NCBI RefSeq assembly: GCF_000317635.1
Contig: NC_019779.1
Location: 2,728,001 to 2,792,000 of the forward strand
From: Halothece sp. PCC 7418
GTDB taxonomy: Bacteria; Cyanobacteriota; Cyanobacteriia; Cyanobacteriales; Rubidibacteraceae
Direction of reading: 5' to 3'
DNA: 64,000 nt
Below, piece after piece: positions 7,827 through 16,460 of this stretch. The stretch's first letter is position 1. Each line of letters opens with the position of its first letter. The notes beneath the pieces were generated by a model. That model worked only from the letters and a program-made list of their open reading frames with translations. It searched no databases and had not been told where the DNA came from. The position numbers and the translations under genes were made by a program.

Positions 7827-9119
7827 ATGTATGGATGTCAGCAAAATCGAATTAAACCAAGCTCTGAGGTCATTCCCATATTAGAACATATTTGCTATAC
7901 GGCTAATAATCTCACTAATTGTGGGATTTATCTGGCTCGTCAAACTTTCTTTAATGAGAAAAGAATTATTGGCAAGTATGAACCAGAAGAAGTCCTAAAA
8001 GGACAGGTCAACTTCAAAGCCCTCTACTCTCAATGCGCTCAACAGGTTCTTAGAAGCGTTGCAGAATCTTTTAAGTCCTATAAGGGTTTGAGAAAAGCCT
8101 TTTTCAAAGGAGAAATTAGTAATCATCCTAAACTTCCCAATTATAGAAATAAAGGAGGGATGGCGGTTGCTTCCTACCCAAAACAAGCTCTGAAGTTAAA
8201 GAGTGGTCAAGTTAGAGTTCCTTTAGGGAAAACAATTAAAGCGTGGTTTGGTCGATCAGAGTTTTTTGTTCCTTTTCCTTCTAATTTAGAATGGGAGAGC
8301 ATTAAAGAGTTAAGAATTCTTCCTAGAAACCGAGAGTTTTATATCGAATGGGTGTATGAAAGACCTGAAGTGAAAACTACAGTTAATTCTACCGAAGCAC
8401 TAGGGGTTGATCCAGGCTTGGATAATTGGTTAACTTGCGTTTCCACCATTGGAGAGTCTTTTATCATTGATGGGAGGAAAGTTAAATCTCTCAATCAGAA
8501 CTATAACCGTCGAGTGTCTTCTCTTAAAGAGGGAAAACCTCAAGGTTATTGGGACTTTGAGTTAGCTAGAATCACCGAAAAACGAAACCGTCAAATCCGA
8601 GATGCTGTTAATAAAGCAGCGAAAATGGTGATTAACTATTGCCTTAATAAGGATATAGGAATCATCGTTTTCGGTTGGAATAAAGGTCAGCGTCAAGGAG
8701 TCAATATAGGGAAGAAAAACAATCAGAACTTTGTCCAGATTCCCACTGCTAAATTAAAAAATCGGATTCAGCAGTTAGCAAAGGAACACGGTATTGAGTT
8801 TGTAGAAACTGAAGAATCTTATACCTCAAAAGCCTCTTTTCTAGATCGTGATTTGCTACCGACCTTCGGTGAAAAACCCGAAAGGTGGCAACCATCAGGA
8901 CAAAGAGTGACCAGAGGGTGCTATCAAGATTCAAAAGGAAGAATTGTAAATGCCGATGCAAACGCAGCAGCAAACATCCTCCGAAAAGTAGAGATACAGC
9001 TAGGATTAGTCCTAGCCAAGGTCTGTAGAGCAGCTTTGAACCTGCCCCAGAGATTTTATCTTTGGAACTCCAAACGAAAAGCGCGAAGCATTATGGCTTT
9101 AGGAGGGGCTGTGTGCTGA
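7827..9119 (+). CDS. tnpB: RNA-guided nuclease TnpB
   Basis: OrfB/TnpB of the IS200/IS605 superfamily, the compact RuvC nuclease ancestral to Cas12, expected to cut DNA matched by an omega RNA from the element's right end. The 430-aa protein has all three RuvC carboxylates: D195 in GVDPGLDN, a Glu at about 330 in FVETEESYTSKASF, and D377 in VNADANAAANI. It therefore looks catalytically intact. The usual CxxC...CxxC zinc finger between RuvC-II and RuvC-III is missing; instead the TSKASFLD...F.GEKPER segment of a zinc-finger-less clade is present. The stop codon lies inside the right-end scaffold hairpin. No tnpA is nearby. Confidence 0.92.
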   Translation: MYGCQQNRIKPSSEVIPILEHICYTANNLTNCGIYLARQTFFNEKRIIGKYEPEEVLKGQVNFKALYSQCAQQVLRSVAESFKSYKGLRKAFFKGEISNHPKLPNYRNKGGMAVASYPKQALKLKSGQVRVPLGKTIKAWFGRSEFFVPFPSNLEWESIKELRILPRNREFYIEWVYERPEVKTTVNSTEALGVDPGLDNWLTCVSTIGESFIIDGRKVKSLNQNYNRRVSSLKEGKPQGYWDFELARITEKRNRQIRDAVNKAAKMVINYCLNKDIGIIVFGWNKGQRQGVNIGKKNNQNFVQIPTAKLKNRIQQLAKEHGIEFVETEESYTSKASFLDRDLLPTFGEKPERWQPSGQRVTRGCYQDSKGRIVNADANAAANILRKVEIQLGLVLAKVCRAALNLPQRFYLWNSKRKARSIMALGGAVC

Positions 9120-11487: not shown

Positions 11488-11582
11488 TGTTGAAAATTAT
11501 TTGGTCTGATTACTTACAATATCGCGCTCAGGTAAGAGGGTTCAACCTAAACAAGAATGGGAGATTTGAGATCAATGAATAA
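11488..11582 (+). pseudogene. Internally deleted DUF4258-like (toxin-side) remnant
   Basis: A 31-codon ORF with a GAGAAGG ribosome-binding site encodes MLKIIWSDYLQYRAQVRGF...NGRFEINE. The first part resembles the N-terminus, and the last 8 residues the C-terminus (a GRFxxxE ending), of a roughly 90-aa cyanobacterial family that I recall paired with DUF2283 proteins. The middle is missing, so it is probably an internal deletion. Its stop overlaps the start of the DUF2283 gene, as in intact pairs. The family call rests on memory. Confidence 0.5.
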
Positions 11583-11934
11583 CTCAAAAATGGCATATTT
11601 TGCTCAGGAAGACATTCTGCACTTAATGATTTCCGACGAACCTGAAGCGGATAGTCGCGAAATTAGTCCCAATATCACAGCAGAACTTAATGAAGCAGGA
11701 GAGTTGATTGGCGTTGAAATTCTTCAGGCAAGCTCGTTTATCAAAGATACAATTTTAGAATTAGTGCAAGCTCAGTTGTTTGAAATGACTGGATCAGATG
11801 GAAAAGTTGGCGCGGACTCCGCCTCAAAAAAATTGGCTATTCGCATCGGTGAGCAATACAGATTATATAGACTCTGCTATCTTCAGAAATGTCGCCAACT
11901 TAATCATTGTGATTTTGAAGGTGATAGTTTATGA
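11575..11934 (+). CDS. DUF2283-like protein with an altered C-terminus
   Basis: Residues about 5-60 (MAYFAQEDILHLMISDEPEA, ISPNITAELNEAGELIGVEIL) match the compact DUF2283 fold, usually the partner of a small toxin-like gene. After ILELVQAQLFEM the sequence runs on for about 45 residues that are Cys/Leu-rich and unlike the family, ending in CDFEGDSL. That tail probably comes from readthrough into foreign or rearranged DNA. The last bases hold one copy of the direct repeat that flanks the retron. Start taken as ATG 11575, overlapping the upstream remnant. Confidence 0.6.
   Translation: MNNSKMAYFAQEDILHLMISDEPEADSREISPNITAELNEAGELIGVEILQASSFIKDTILELVQAQLFEMTGSDGKVGADSASKKLAIRIGEQYRLYRLCYLQKCRQLNHCDFEGDSL
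11909..11931. repeat. Left copy of the 23-bp imperfect direct repeat flanking the retron
   Basis: The sequence is close to GTNATTTTGAAGGTNATNGTTTA and matches 20 of 23 bases of 16498-16520 in the same orientation. It ends 9 bp before the a1 strand of the retron RNA. It could be an attachment-site-like or target duplication made when the island inserted, or a chance remnant of duplicated coding sequence. Confidence 0.5.
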
Positions 11935-11936
11935 TT

Positions 11937-12087
11937 GAGGATAGTCACTTGCGGGATAAGTATTGATTTCCGTTGTTGATCCTGCGACGGTGTATTTTAC
12001 GGTCAGCTTTACACAACCAATCGTGGTTTTGTTATTTATTGGCTTTTCGCAAGCATAAGCGAGAATATACCCGCAAGTGATTATCTC
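11937..12087 (+). ncRNA. Retron msr-msd-like RNA
   Basis: Directly upstream of the reverse transcriptase, ATAGTCACTTGCGGG (11941-11955) pairs over 15 bp (one G-U) with CCCGCAAGTGATTAT (12070-12084). This is the a1/a2 inverted repeat that brackets every retron RNA. Between them are a 7-bp hairpin (11970-11990, CCGTTGT/GCGACGG), a weaker CCAAT/ATTGG stem (12017-12042) and a hairpin TTTTCGC/GCGAGAA (12044-12065). These fit an msr followed by a short msd. The RT start is 45 bp downstream. The branching G and the exact msd ends cannot be assigned by eye. Confidence 0.75.
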
Positions 12088-12131: not shown

Positions 12132-13256
12132 ATGGTAATTAACTTACCACAGGGACAACTAATCGAGAAAAAGCGTTCTAAGAGAGAACAAAAAAGCTCT
12201 CTTTTGCTTTTGAAAAAAAGTCCTGAAGAGTTACGCACCAAGTTTTTTGAGTTAAATAGTCCTCGTGATGTTGCGAAACTGTTAGGAATTTCCTATGGTC
12301 GTTTGGTTTACCATATTTATATCGTTTCAGAAGCTAATCGTTACAAAACATTTGAAATCCCCAAACGATCTGGAGGTGTTCGCCAGATATCAACGCCAAG
12401 AACAGCATTGAAAATTATTCAATGGAAACTCAACCAAGTGTTGCAAGCCGTCTATAAACCGAAACCCTCTGCACATGGTTTTGTTCCTAATAAAAATATT
12501 GTTACGAATGCCCAAGCCCATTCCAAAAAACGTTATGTTCTCAATTTAGACTTAAAAGACTTTTTTCCCTCCGTTAATTTTGGTCGGGTTCGGGGAATGT
12601 TTATGGGAACTCCCTATAGTTTAAATGCCAATGTAGCGACAGTATTGGCTCAAATTTGCTGCCATAATAACCAACTTCCCCAAGGCGCACCCACTTCTCC
12701 GATAATTACAAATATGATTTGCGCGAAAATGGATAGCCAGTTACAGCATTTAGCAAAAAGTTGTAAAGCTACTTATACCCGATACGCTGATGATATTACA
12801 TTTTCAACAACCTTAAAACAATTTCCTGAGTCTTTAGCAAGAGTCATCACAGAAGAAGGAGAAGAAAGAGTTATTTTAGGAGAGCCTTTGCTGGGAATTA
12901 TTGCTGAAAATGGTTTTGAAGTTAATGAACAAAAAATTAGATTACAAACCAAGGGAAATCATCAAGAAGTAACAGGGTTAACAACTAACCAGTTTCCGAA
13001 TGTTGACCGTCGTTTTGTCCGTCAAATTCGAGCGATGCTTCATGCTTGGCAGAAATTTGGCTTAGAAGCAGCAGAAGCAGAACATCGGGAAAGGTATAGA
13101 AATAAAGCAAACTTTCCAGGAAAAAGTGAATCTAATTTTAAGGAGGTACTTCGAGGAAAAATAGAATTTATTGGAATGGTTAAAGGGAGAAATAATGAAA
13201 TATACCAAAAATATTTACAGTGGTATGTAAAGTTATTAAAATTTGGTAGTAATTAA
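12132..13256 (+). CDS. Retron reverse transcriptase
   Basis: The 374-aa RT reverse-transcribes the upstream msr-msd RNA into multicopy single-stranded DNA. Visible motifs are RT1 LNLDLKDFFPSV (D140), the LPQGAPTSP block (182-190) and the catalytic YADD (218-221). The two retron-specific signatures are also there: NAQAH at 126-130 (NAXXH, region X) and VTG at 280-282 (region Y). The first 60 residues form a basic helical N-terminus with an HTH-like stretch (PRDVAKLLGISYGRL). A GAGG ribosome-binding site precedes the ATG. No maturase or protease is fused. The next two genes follow at 16 and 23 bp spacing, making one operon. Base composition is much more AT-rich than the flanking genes. Confidence 0.93.
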   Translation: MVINLPQGQLIEKKRSKREQKSSLLLLKKSPEELRTKFFELNSPRDVAKLLGISYGRLVYHIYIVSEANRYKTFEIPKRSGGVRQISTPRTALKIIQWKLNQVLQAVYKPKPSAHGFVPNKNIVTNAQAHSKKRYVLNLDLKDFFPSVNFGRVRGMFMGTPYSLNANVATVLAQICCHNNQLPQGAPTSPIITNMICAKMDSQLQHLAKSCKATYTRYADDITFSTTLKQFPESLARVITEEGEERVILGEPLLGIIAENGFEVNEQKIRLQTKGNHQEVTGLTTNQFPNVDRRFVRQIRAMLHAWQKFGLEAAEAEHRERYRNKANFPGKSESNFKEVLRGKIEFIGMVKGRNNEIYQKYLQWYVKLLKFGSN

Positions 13257-13272
13257 ATAATTAAATTGTTTT

Positions 13273-14007
13273 ATGTCTAACTTAAACAGAATTAACAAGA
13301 GCAATATTAAAAATAGATACCAAGAGTTACTTAAAGATATTAGTAATTCTGTTGATGTAATTATCTTATTACAAGGTATATTAAGCAGCCAAGTTGTTAC
13401 TGATGTTACCGTATCAGATTTAAGTAAAAGTTTAACTCAAAATAGTCAATCCTATTCGGATCAAGTTAAGCAATGCTACATTGATTACTCTGATATTAAG
13501 GATGATGTATTTAGGAAGCAACTAGAAAAAGATAGTCAAGTGATGTTGAAAGCGAAAATTAACAATGATTTTGAACAATATTGTCAATGCGCCTGCTTAC
13601 AAATAGAAGCTGCTCTTGAATACTTTACAAAAATCAAGCCTGAGATTTATAAAAAATTTCTTGATGAAGATGATTATTATAAAGATAAAGATATAAGGTT
13701 TTTTAATAAAAAAGCAGCTTATGATTTTTGGTATGAAGAAACCTATAAAAAGAAAAGAGCGATAAATGACTCAAATTATAATAATATCTTATATATTATG
13801 AACATTAGAGATGCAGCAAGCCATAGAACACTAGGTCATGTTTCCTTTGAAGAGAAATTAGGAAAAGTTATACCTAAAAAAAAAGACCCTGAAAAAGAAA
13901 AAACTTACTTTGATTATGTAATAGATTTCTACAAAGAGCATGACTTTGCATTAGTGAAAAGAAGAACTGAAAATCTGGTAAGAAATATACTTATTAACCA
14001 GTTTTAG
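13273..14007 (+). CDS. HEPN-like protein in the retron operon
   Basis: A 244-aa all-helical protein with no signal or membrane segment. It has the helix CQCACLQIEAALEYFTKI (about 104-121), typical of the first helix of HEPN domains, and RDAASH at 179-184. The latter fits the HEPN Rx4-6H active-site motif with a polar residue after the Arg. HEPN proteins are often ribonucleases or toxins in defence and toxin-antitoxin systems, so this could be the toxic effector or a partner of the downstream gene. That is inference. The C-terminus is Lys/Glu-rich. It lies 16 bp after the RT gene. Confidence 0.55.
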   Translation: MSNLNRINKSNIKNRYQELLKDISNSVDVIILLQGILSSQVVTDVTVSDLSKSLTQNSQSYSDQVKQCYIDYSDIKDDVFRKQLEKDSQVMLKAKINNDFEQYCQCACLQIEAALEYFTKIKPEIYKKFLDEDDYYKDKDIRFFNKKAAYDFWYEETYKKKRAINDSNYNNILYIMNIRDAASHRTLGHVSFEEKLGKVIPKKKDPEKEKTYFDYVIDFYKEHDFALVKRRTENLVRNILINQF

Positions 14008-14030: not shown

Positions 14031-16460
14031 ATGAGAGAAGGAAAAATTATATGGTTTGGTGGTTTTAACCATAAGACTAACAAAAATAATAATTATGGTT
14101 TTTTATCTGATCCAGAGGAAGGAGACATATATTTCTGCAAATCTGAAATCGTATTAGAAGAAGACTTATTATTTCTAGAGCAAGATGCTGAGAATAGGAA
14201 GAAAGGTCAAGGGATAATTGTCAACTATCAATTAAAATATAATCAACGTAAAAAGAAAGAATATGCTTCTCAAGTCAGACTAAAAAGAGTTATTGATTTT
14301 TACCCGCCTTATGATACTCAAATAAAAGAATTGTATGTTCGCTTTCTGAGCTTCAAAAAATATGAACCCATTAGAGATTTAAGTCCTAACCTAGTGGAAG
14401 ATCGAGAAAGAATTAAGAACTTTGCCAAAAACTTAAGCATAGAAGATTTTATAAAATTGACGCGATATTTGATCCGCGAAGAAGCTGATCAAAATATTCC
14501 AGAAATCCTACAGTATTTTATTGACACTCAAAAAAATTATCAAGATGCGGAAAGTATTATTAATCAACTGTTTATTCGTTATCCTATCTATTTGAACTAC
14601 TGTTCACACTATTTAGAGAGATTAACCAATGACTCCTTACTAGATATTGCTTCAAATTCTTCATTTGCAGATGTTAGTTTAGATTTCACTAATTCTATTC
14701 TAGAGCGACTCATTGATTTGAGAGAAGATAACTTCTTTCAAATACATCAACTTAACCATCATTTTTTATCCGTACTGGCTCAAGAAAGTAAGTATTGGAA
14801 CTACCTATCACTTGAAGAATTAACTTACTTGTATAGTAAGCAAAAACAGAATATTAATCAAACTGATTCCTATAGTTTCTTGGAAGTGGTTATAGAAAAA
14901 CTTGAAGAAGGGGAAACTGTAGATACTCAGGTTTGGAAAACCATAGATATACTTAAAGATTGTGTAGAATATCACGGTAAACTTTGGAATATAGCACCAG
15001 ATTTTATTAAAGTCGATATGATACGACAACGCTACCAAAAGTTTTTACAAATAGTAGATGATTGGAAAAATTATGAGCCAAAAGATGCTGAAACCATTAA
15101 AGTAAACTGCAACACAGCCTATGACTTTACAACATCAGATGAAACTTTGGCTATGGAATGGGCTGAAGATGGGATAACACAAGCATCTAATTTTACTAAA
15201 AGTACCATGTTTTCGGCGCGTGGAGCAGAAAAAGCCGCAATTGACCACTATCAAAAAAGAGGTTATCAAGTTAAAGATACTGCAATACAACAAGTAGAAG
15301 GATCATCTCAAGAGTGGAAATTGTATGATATTGAAGTCAAGAAGACAAATCAAATAAAATGTATAGATGTTAAAAATGCAAGAAGCTCCTATAGTAACAA
15401 TAATCGCTTTAGTGAATTTTGCGTTCCCAAATTTAAGAAACGAGAGAATGATGAGGATGTAATTATTCTAGGGGTTTTTTCGCCCTATTTTTCTAGTTTT
15501 CCAGTTCCTGAAAGATATATCAATGGTAAAAGTATCAGAATTTTAGGTGAAGTAACGGAACTTTTGTTGAAACAACTTCAAGAACGCTGTAGAAAGTTAT
15601 ATTCTCAACTAGAAATCACCATCAAACGAGAGAGTAAATATAAAAAGAATTATCTTTCTGAATATATACCAATTTGGGCTTTTGACTTTGACGAAGAATT
15701 TTATAGCGAAAGAATACAAATAGAGGAAAGATTTAGAAATCTAAGTTCAGATGAAATTCCTCCCTTATCAGAGCTAAAACTGCTTCAATTATCTCCATTG
15801 TCTCTTGCTTTATCTTCCAACCTGAATTTTCCTGATTCTTGGAAACAGGAGTTAACCATTTCTGAGCTTCGTTTTGCTAAAACCTTAAGAAGTTTAGTAG
15901 GTGCAGATGAAACTGATACCAATCATGAAGAAGTACCAGTAGTTAAACTATCTCATATCTTCCTAGCAGTTTTGACTCACTTTCTTGAAAACTGTCTCAA
16001 TCACGATTCTAGTTTTTCTCCTACAATCTATAGGAAGATACTTTTTACTGACTCTCCCAGCACAATGGGAGTTTATGATCCAATTTCATTTATTGAGAGT
16101 ATCTGTAATATTTTAGAAACGGTTTGGAATAATTGCAGAGATGAATTACTGAGTTTTAGTTACTTTAAGTTCGACTCTAGAGGATTACTTCGAGGTAAAG
16201 AAAGAGGAACAGGAATATATAAAACAATACTAGCTTATTGTGGAGGTTGGCTCAAAGATGATCGCAAAGGAATCAATGTTCCTTGTGGAAACGAACCCCT
16301 ATATATTGGTCATCAAAAGACCTGTCCCCGTTGTCAAAAGTTAATTTGTGAAAAATGTGGATATTGTCAGAAAGGTTGTCCTGGAGATCCAAATCTAGAT
16401 ATTGAACCATATAATGATAGCTTAGGAAGAAGCTCGACTTCAGGAACATGGTGGCTTTGA
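14031..16460 (+). CDS. Cold-shock-domain / PD-(D/E)XK nuclease-like / zinc-finger protein in the retron operon
   Basis: An 809-aa protein. Residues 1 to about 88 resemble a cold-shock (OB-fold) domain: GKIIWFGGF, NYGFLSD, DIYFCKSEI. A long helical region follows (about 90-370). Residues 395-485 fit a PD-(D/E)XK nuclease core: E400 in a helix (ARGAEKAAIDHYQKRGYQV), D433 in LYDIEV, then D446-V-K448 in CIDVKNAR. The last 60 residues hold a Cys cluster (C765, C768, C773, C776, C779, C783, with C752 nearby) that looks like zinc binding. The layout suggests a nucleic-acid-sensing nuclease effector of the retron; cold-shock-domain proteins are known beside some retrons. Function is inferred, not shown. 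Confidence 0.6.
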   Translation: MREGKIIWFGGFNHKTNKNNNYGFLSDPEEGDIYFCKSEIVLEEDLLFLEQDAENRKKGQGIIVNYQLKYNQRKKKEYASQVRLKRVIDFYPPYDTQIKELYVRFLSFKKYEPIRDLSPNLVEDRERIKNFAKNLSIEDFIKLTRYLIREEADQNIPEILQYFIDTQKNYQDAESIINQLFIRYPIYLNYCSHYLERLTNDSLLDIASNSSFADVSLDFTNSILERLIDLREDNFFQIHQLNHHFLSVLAQESKYWNYLSLEELTYLYSKQKQNINQTDSYSFLEVVIEKLEEGETVDTQVWKTIDILKDCVEYHGKLWNIAPDFIKVDMIRQRYQKFLQIVDDWKNYEPKDAETIKVNCNTAYDFTTSDETLAMEWAEDGITQASNFTKSTMFSARGAEKAAIDHYQKRGYQVKDTAIQQVEGSSQEWKLYDIEVKKTNQIKCIDVKNARSSYSNNNRFSEFCVPKFKKRENDEDVIILGVFSPYFSSFPVPERYINGKSIRILGEVTELLLKQLQERCRKLYSQLEITIKRESKYKKNYLSEYIPIWAFDFDEEFYSERIQIEERFRNLSSDEIPPLSELKLLQLSPLSLALSSNLNFPDSWKQELTISELRFAKTLRSLVGADETDTNHEEVPVVKLSHIFLAVLTHFLENCLNHDSSFSPTIYRKILFTDSPSTMGVYDPISFIESICNILETVWNNCRDELLSFSYFKFDSRGLLRGKERGTGIYKTILAYCGGWLKDDRKGINVPCGNEPLYIGHQKTCPRCQKLICEKCGYCQKGCPGDPNLDIEPYNDSLGRSSTSGTWWL

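Follow-up and report, generated by a model that had tools for sequence, protein, structure and literature searches.

The window, that is, the whole stretch of 64,000 nucleotides of Halothece sp. PCC 7418 DNA that was analysed, very probably contains a tripartite retron, made up of a non-coding RNA (ncRNA), a reverse transcriptase (RT) and a trans-encoded predicted HEPN effector, which the complex of RT and msDNA would restrain. Retrons are bacterial elements that make small RNA-linked DNA, and that probably guard against viruses. The features of the locus are collected in Table 1.

Table 1. Features of the retron locus (positions in the window)
Feature	Position	Strand	Basis or remark
Sigma-70-like promoter TTGTGA-N17-TATGAT	11907..11935	+	predicted transcription start close to the first base of a1
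a1 arm of the ncRNA	11940..11955	+	fold, pairing, covariation, shuffles
Inner a1 extension, partner of 12064-12068	11960..11964	+	4 of 5 pairs changed on both sides; 95.6% of cells paired
Proposed branching G (2'-5' link to msDNA)	11965..11965	+	homology with rG15 of Retron-Eco2
msr stem-loop, most conserved part of the RNA	11970..11990	+	7 pairs, 97.5% of cells paired
Predicted msd (reverse-transcribed), about 64 nt	12000..12063	+	both ends inferred by homology with Retron-Eco2
Inner a1/a2 extension, 3' strand	12064..12068	+	covariation
a2 arm of the ncRNA	12070..12085	+	fold, pairing, covariation, shuffles
Retron RT, 374 aa, without fused effector domain	12132..13256	+	Pfam, PADLOC, NCBIfam, motifs
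Predicted HEPN effector, 244 aa	13273..14007	+	position, R-x4-H alignment, profile, predicted models
R-x4-H motif RDAASH, residues 179-184	13807..13824	+	aligned family
809-aa gene, 23 bp past the partner gene, same direction	14031..16460	+	possible accessory gene

The original prediction had described a 15-bp a1/a2 stem with one wobble and arms 114 nt apart. Such arms are present on the plus strand at 11941-11955 (ATAGTCACTTGCGGG) and 12070-12084 (CCCGCAAGTGATTAT), with a spacing of 114 nt, 14 Watson-Crick pairs and one G-U pair (11944/12081). The pair G11940-C12085 adds a 16th, and the full stem joins 11940-11955 with 12070-12085. The ATG of the RT gene at 12132 lies 46 nt past the end of a2 (12085), and the predicted distance of 45 bp fits when counted from 12086. 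In the 197-nt intergenic gap between the upstream ORF and the RT gene, the longest stem with at most one G-U pair and arms at least 60 nt apart has 16 pairs, compared to a maximum of 12 in 1,000 dinucleotide shuffles of the gap. The ncRNA strand has a folding energy of -57.9 kcal/mol (z -5.5), which none of 200 shuffles equalled. The same holds for the opposite strand, with a z of -3.8. Rfam at gathering thresholds has no match at the ncRNA, and reports only a tRNA elsewhere in the window. Promoter sites of the type listed in Table 1 occur twice in the region against 1.0 expected in shuffles, which is weak on its own. Identical boxes with the same spacing were read by eye ahead of a1 in a relative (L031). 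A DUF2283 gene (window 11557-11934) stops five bases short of a1, and other genes are found upstream in the relatives examined.

The three short inner hairpins that had been predicted are present in the minimum-energy fold, but only the first of them (11970-11990) is kept across relatives. Together with it, a five-pair continuation of the a1/a2 stem (11960-11964/12064-12068) is conserved inside the stem. A four-pair base of the msd (12006-12009/12057-12060) is kept less strictly, with 81.8% of cells paired.

The comparison of related loci covered 91 RT loci, namely the window, 10 loci from the genome sample, and 80 that were the best of at least 581 relatives in named genome contigs. An alignment of 18 sequences (A4) was used to build a covariance model with 145 positions and 31 pairs, which was searched against 66 of them, the other 25 being mostly distant RTs and the partial loci L085, L094 and L101. 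Each of the 22 rows in the RT clade of the window has a match to the model at most about 250 bp upstream of the RT. Seventeen of these rows were in the seed of the model; the non-seed rows are L037, L040, L061, L063 and L245, and the RNA matched in L061 is identical to that of the seed row L060. No row of the clade keeps the RT and lacks the RNA match, which speaks for the original prediction. Altogether, 50 matches at E up to 1e-3 were found in 48 sources, and 8 of the 66 sources, among the more distant RT loci, gave no match at E up to 1.

In some relatives, the sequences of a1 and a2 are wholly different, yet the stem is kept. This is the case for L063 (GGACGAGGGATGTCTACGGA and TCTGTAGACATCCTTCATTC), L041 (GGAGATGTCTAG and CTAGATGTCTCC) and L040. 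Across 47 aligned RNAs, 46 of them distinct, standard pairs occupy 91.1% of the cells of the 31 pairs against a shuffle mean of 75.2%, although this alignment, having been fitted to the structure, is biased in its favour, and relatedness among the rows can lift pairing above that of shuffles. When the partners are slid by 1-3 columns, 32-55% of the pair cells remain paired. Changes on both sides with pairing kept were found for 26 of the 31 pairs, and for all 15 modelled a1/a2 pairs, so that compensatory changes in the stem across orthologous loci are present throughout its modelled length. The stems of relatives are also seen by plain search, without the structure-fitted alignment, and an unfitted MAFFT alignment of 21 sequences has changes on both sides in 11 of 24 pairs. 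With a limit of E 1e-5, 45 of the 66 sources entered alignment A6; among the 21 left out are L080, L073 and L083 (E 2.8e-5 to 1e-3), weaker ones such as L069 (E 0.3), and the 8 unmatched sources.

The same association of RNA and RT is seen in cyanobacterial genomes at large. The RNA was found in 17 of 377 genomes (18 matches), and this RT adjoins it in 16 of the 17. An RT match at E 1e-30 or better is present in 34 of 386 cyanobacterial genomes. The 18 of these without an RNA match comprise 17 with distant RTs (32-48% identity) and one (G048) with a partial RT. The genome in which no RT adjoins the RNA is G093 (E 2.6e-4). Its weak match (L243:1971-2078) lies just before an AAA gene that is like the third gene of L034 and L038, and an RT is absent from the 5 kb examined there. 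The match is perhaps a deletion remnant. Two loci carry two tandem retron RNAs before one RT, with near-identical msr and different msds: L051 (5355-5556 and 5800-5955) and L038 (9291-9464 and 8996-9138, minus strand).

As far as sequences can establish it, the a1/a2-closed RNA is under selection for pairing and stays upstream of a retron-type RT. An attenuator, a remnant of an insertion sequence, or some other transcriptional or regulatory structure before an RT of another kind could also present a long paired stem, and the msr stem-loop does score as terminator-like. Considering the covariation over 47 RNAs, the retron motifs of the RT and the steady position before it, we regard this alternative as barely credible. 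The stem-closed RNA, as judged by its conservation, is a genuine msr-msd RNA of a retron.

The RT itself matches Pfam RVT_1 with E 5.7e-23, and the retron RT models of PADLOC with E down to 1.5e-140. The top PADLOC models are RT-Protease_XI (467 bits), RT-TIR_XII (451 bits) and RT-Toprim_I-C (439 bits). RT_XIII follows lower with 294 bits, and RT_IX, in the 25th row, with 182 bits. The models of fused proteins are matched in their RT part only, ending at 304-331 of 475-568 positions; RT-Protease_XI, for example, is matched at positions 3-322 of 510. The NCBIfam models stay below their cut-offs: the TIR retron model scores 397 bits (cut-off 600) and the Ec67 model 368 bits (E 9.1e-110, cut-off 450), and the match to the St85 retron model is below its cut-off too. 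The motifs NAxxH (126-130, with N126, A127 and H130), YADD (218-221, with Y218, A219, D220 and D221) and VTG (280-282, with V280, T281 and G282) are all present. NAxxH and VTG are retron-specific RT motifs, according to the passages compared of PMC6868368. An RNA closed by a1 and a2 upstream of an RT with retron motifs is the standard retron layout, as had been predicted.

Retron-Eco2 provides a guide to the interior of the RNA. According to the available passages of PMC12405507, the branched rG15 precedes four unpaired bases (A16-U19) and then the msr stem-loop, and its msd has 67 bases. In the window, TATT (11961-11964) pairs with AATA (12064-12067), and is followed by G11965, the four bases ATTT, and the stem-loop 11970-11990. 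The layout of a G, four bases and a stem-loop matches that of Retron-Eco2, which makes G11965 the likely branching G by homology. A branching G can in this way be named for the window, but not in every relative: of the 47 aligned RNAs, 44 have G in this column, L075 and L076 have T, and L086 has A, and the corresponding position in L069, which is outside the 47-RNA alignment, is A. By the same homology, which supplies both ends, the template would run from about 12063 back to about 12000, or about 64 nt. The msd had been thought short compared with known ones. This impression does not hold, since the predicted length is close to the 67 nt of Retron-Eco2 and above the 55 nt given for the Retron-Kva2 msd in the available part of PMC13405049.

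The predicted third component is encoded by the 244-aa ORF that begins 16 bp past the end of the RT gene, in the same direction. Relatives have a gene for 178-335 aa at the equivalent place, apart from one of 147 aa in L052, where the contig end cuts the gene. Sequence comparison establishes that, in most of the clade, the RT is followed by a gene in which an R-x4-H motif aligns. The R is present in 21 of 21 aligned proteins (including those of L128 and L052), and the H in all 20 that have a letter there; four residues separate them in 19 proteins, and five in L040.

A profile of the partner family was built from 14 proteins and searched against the six-frame ORFs of 171 loci (91 RT loci and 80 viral ones). 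All 20 hits with E below 1e-3, 14 of which were themselves in the profile, belong to the RT clade of the window or to its partial relatives L048, L085 and L094. The next-best match is L128, from Pontibacter, with E 0.013. On viral contigs, the profile had no hit in the best 80 of 374 confirmed RT relatives (29-48% identity). Among 377 genomes, the profile at E up to 1e-3 hit 10, of which 5 had contributed to it, and the gene is directly 3' of the RT in 8. In G064, a truncated RT frame carries the end of the partner gene as a fusion. In G326, the partner gene is near the end of a 29,190-base contig (L216) that is separate from the RT contig (L031), and the end of the former is, by eye, approximately the reverse complement of the end of the latter. 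These near-inverted shared contig ends suggest that an insertion element probably lies between the RT and the HEPN gene.

It could be argued that the retron consists of ncRNA and RT, and that the downstream gene encodes a HEPN toxin or some other protein of the same defence island rather than the effector. The partner proteins are very divergent, with a mean column identity of 29% compared to 70% for the RT, and two members of the clade do without the gene: in L036, where the RT is intact, neither six-frame ORFs nor the profile revealed a partner gene after it, and L037 has none either. However, the RT frame of L037 is interrupted. Moreover, in 19 of the 20 profile hits the downstream gene begins no more than 11 bp ahead of the end of the RT gene and no more than 69 bp past it, and the 20th (L048) is a fusion with a truncated RT frame. 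In the 377 genomes, the 10 hits are the only ones that the profile finds at E up to 1e-3. Two further loci, L040 and L245, have a gene with R-x5-H or R-x4-H after the RT that is below profile detection. A chance neighbour from the same island thus appears improbable, and the gene is better explained as a candidate effector of the retron.

What kind of effector it might be is less directly evident from sequence searches. At E 0.01, the partner protein of the window is without hits in Pfam, NCBIfam and PADLOC, and PHROGs did not identify it either. At a looser limit, its best Pfam row is a receiver domain (E 0.024), and sub-threshold rows among the relatives include the HEPN-type families DUF3644 (E 0.011) and DUF4145 (E 0.43). 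Weak PADLOC rows, each for 1 of 14 members, are MTase_II (E 0.0012), Csx20 (0.019), CARF_HEPN (0.074) and KwaA (0.09); the unrelated MTase_II model thus outscores the HEPN-type families in one member. A profile search of PDB sequences with the partner family gave one chance hit (E 2.7).

For predicted models, AlphaFold2 reached a pLDDT of 68.8 for the window protein, and of 81.4 for a short relative from L053. In VIA-align, the window model is closest to 2hsb (AF_0298; Z 7.8, rmsd 4.1 over 117 residues) and 2q00 (Z 7.0, 4.6 over 119), followed by Csm6' (Z 6.6, 10.2 over 161), AbiV (Z 6.3, 4.2 over 110), Csm6 (Z 6.2, 4.5 over 134) and MtlR (Z 6.2, 5.7 over 124). The L053 model is closest to Csm6 (Z 6.7, 6.8 over 143) and SO_3166 (Z 6.4, 3.7 over 98), followed by YutE (Z 5.8, 3.7 over 98), 7bxo (Z 5.8, 3.6 over 96) and AbiA (Z 5.5, 5.3 over 125). 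Z values of 5.5-7.8, being below 8, may reflect a mere common helical arrangement. HEPN is named in the structure tables for 2hsb and AbiV, and 2q00, SO_3166, YutE and 7bxo presumably hold HEPN domains. In the literature passages compared, AbiA is a HEPN protein (PMC8934634), and Csm6 holds a HEPN domain (PMC13405049).

An effector of another kind, in which the helical fold and the R-x4-H motif coincide by chance, would be consistent with the lack of significant family matches, with the lack of a significant Foldseek match for either the window or the L053 model, and with Z values that are weak for helical bundles. It would also agree with the MTase_II row and with MtlR, which has no HEPN name in the table and yet ranks among the HEPN rows. 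Against such a coincidence, R-x4-H stays aligned in proteins with little else in common, and HEPN proteins head the list of solved structures for both models (AF_0298, Csm6 and AbiV for the window protein; Csm6, SO_3166, YutE and AbiA for the relative). We therefore give this explanation only a small chance. From motif and models, the partner protein is a probable HEPN protein and putative ribonuclease.

In a tree of 44 RTs, 19 HEPN-labelled rows and L062, L036 and L037 form one group of 22. The deepest node of this clade is weak (80/49), and the nodes of 20 and 19 rows have higher support (93/87 and 96/94). The contig of L062 is identical with that of G326, a genome in which the HEPN gene sits on another contig. 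The labels were assigned by the analyst, for L040 and L245 from position and motif alone; an earlier quick RT tree was made without L048, L085 and L094, which are too short. In a sister group, a gene with SLFN_AlbA_2 and TPR matches in Pfam is upstream of RNA and RT (L091:4706-5821, L074:1278-2360 and L081:4399-5445); the AlbA label was given by eye in L076, L082 and L103, and assumed for L075, the contig of which reaches only about 300 bp upstream of the RT. In another sister group, Pfam identifies a Trypsin_2 gene upstream of RNA and RT (L042:8624-10501 on the minus strand, L065:1697-3580 and L064:3394-4578), accompanied by TPR in L042 and L065; the trypsin label in L066 was given by eye from fragments, and L069 was labelled "alone" despite an upstream TPR gene. 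The upstream trypsin gene and the RT look as if they were a split form of type XI. In the two fused RTs scanned (L093 and L067), Pfam names the RT part only.

These arrangements may indicate that one RT-msr lineage, here mostly cyanobacterial, swaps whole trans effectors, with HEPN downstream and Schlafen/AlbA-TPR or trypsin (in most cases together with TPR) upstream, alongside the fusions of types I-C, XI and XII. In the HEPN clade, the msr would be nearly fixed while the msd varies, and tandem RNAs may wire one effector to more than one sensor. We consider the chances of this scenario to be about even. As a separate observation, L043 (G103) encodes a 757-aa RT in which an AAA_5 match comes after the RT, and the RT gene of L246, from a plasmid of Nostoc sp. 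HK-01, is similarly long.

The gene that follows the HEPN gene is variable. It has AAA_33 with WYL/WCX in L034, L038 and a plasmid of Picosynechococcus sp. PCC 7002, WCX in L040, and RRM in L051 and L053. In the window, its place is taken by the 809-aa gene, the product of which has no Pfam family and no named relative in plasmid and PDB searches. Among 194 genomes, 7 others have relatives of this protein, several of them matched in part, and none of these relatives is beside this RT; in G187, which comes closest, a weak partial match is 11 kb from it. Because of this distribution, the 809-aa gene was not retained as a candidate for the effector. Further upstream in the window, an OrfB_IS605 (TnpB-like) transposase gene is located at 7827-9119.

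The likeliest way in which the predicted effector would work is that of a restrained RNase freed by phage interference with the msDNA hairpin, because this is suggested by what has been published on Retron-Kva2 and Retron-Eco2. Transcription would proceed from the promoter at 11907-11935 through the RT gene. Pairing of a1 and a2 would set G11965 beside the end of the template, and the RT would prime on the 2'-OH of this G, copying about 64 nt of the msd into msDNA. The msDNA would stay bound to the RT via the conserved msr stem-loop, and the complex would keep the HEPN protein in an inactive state. Once a phage product binds or modifies the variable msd hairpin, or degrades it, a HEPN dimer may be freed or rearranged, which would cut RNA, probably tRNA, and stop the growth of the infected cell. 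In Retron-Kva2, according to passages of a preprint (PMC13405049), a complex of RT, winged-helix protein (WH), msrRNA and msDNA holds a HEPN dimer, which cleaves tRNA once a phage protein binds the msDNA. The Toprim part of Retron-Eco2 works as an RNase, according to the passages compared of PMC12405507.

Retrons are a known kind of element, and their occurrence in cyanobacteria is not new: the available parts of reviews already report putative retrons there, and one review places them with myxococcal RTs. No literature on retrons in Halothece was found, and no paper on retrons and plasmid pAQ5 together came up in a literature search, in which PMC6957532 matched for retron and PCC 7002. This plasmid of Picosynechococcus sp. 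PCC 7002 has a retron RNA match (86 bits) and a gene annotated as RT. A "hypothetical protein" gene with the motif RNHRSH overlaps the RT gene, and is not detected by the partner profile; the "ATP-binding protein" of pAQ5 is AAA_33 with weak WYL/WCX matches. Thanks to the relative in PCC 7002, the retron can be tested directly, and the loci in which tandem RNAs differ in their msds pose the testable question of multi-input sensing.

A free-standing RT of the I-C/XI/XII branch with a downstream R-x4-H HEPN gene was found neither in PADLOC (2023), Pfam and NCBIfam nor in the literature passages compared, the Mestre 2020 classification being outside this comparison. Among PMC13405049, PMC8934634 and PMC12948488, the passages compared describe a HEPN retron in PMC13405049 only, and the literature matches listed contain none on a retron and Schlafen together. 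The best reading, within the literature compared, is that a retron type with a trans-encoded HEPN protein on this RT branch was found undescribed. If this is true, the locus would represent a retron type without a name in PADLOC (2023), Pfam and NCBIfam as searched here, and would join a HEPN partner to an RT branch otherwise known for fused effectors.

With respect to the effector, the retron is reminiscent of type IX, in which, according to the available passages on Retron-Kva2 (PMC13405049), the effector is a HEPN RNase held by RT and msDNA. According to the same passages, the Kva2 operon consists of HEPN, winged-helix protein, RT and ncRNA, and the Kva2 HEPN protein lacks the canonical motif. 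In the window, the predicted HEPN gene follows the RT, and its family keeps R-x4-H. The two genes downstream of the RT had no hit to a winged-helix family, although family libraries may miss one. Filing under type IX was rejected because of the rank of the RT_IX model, its 182 bits against 467 for type XI, and the R-x4-H motif. The partner is similar in its predicted models and R-x4-H motif to HEPN ribonucleases such as Csm6, AbiV and HepT-like proteins. Unlike them, it is placed behind a retron RT, and no significant sequence relation to them was found.

With respect to the RT, types XI (RT-protease) and XII (RT-TIR) give the best PADLOC scores, but the RT of the window has no fused protease or TIR domain. 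Together with these two types, type I-C (Retron-Eco2/Ec67, RT-Toprim) is the nearest RT branch. The RNA resembles that of Retron-Eco2, as far as the available passages describe it, in having one msr stem-loop, in the order of G, four bases and stem-loop, and in an msd of about equal length. In contrast to Retron-Eco2, which has a C-terminal Toprim fusion, the RT of the window ends at residue 374, and its partner is a separate predicted HEPN gene. If the assignment is correct, the control of fused and free effectors can be compared on related RTs and msr elements.
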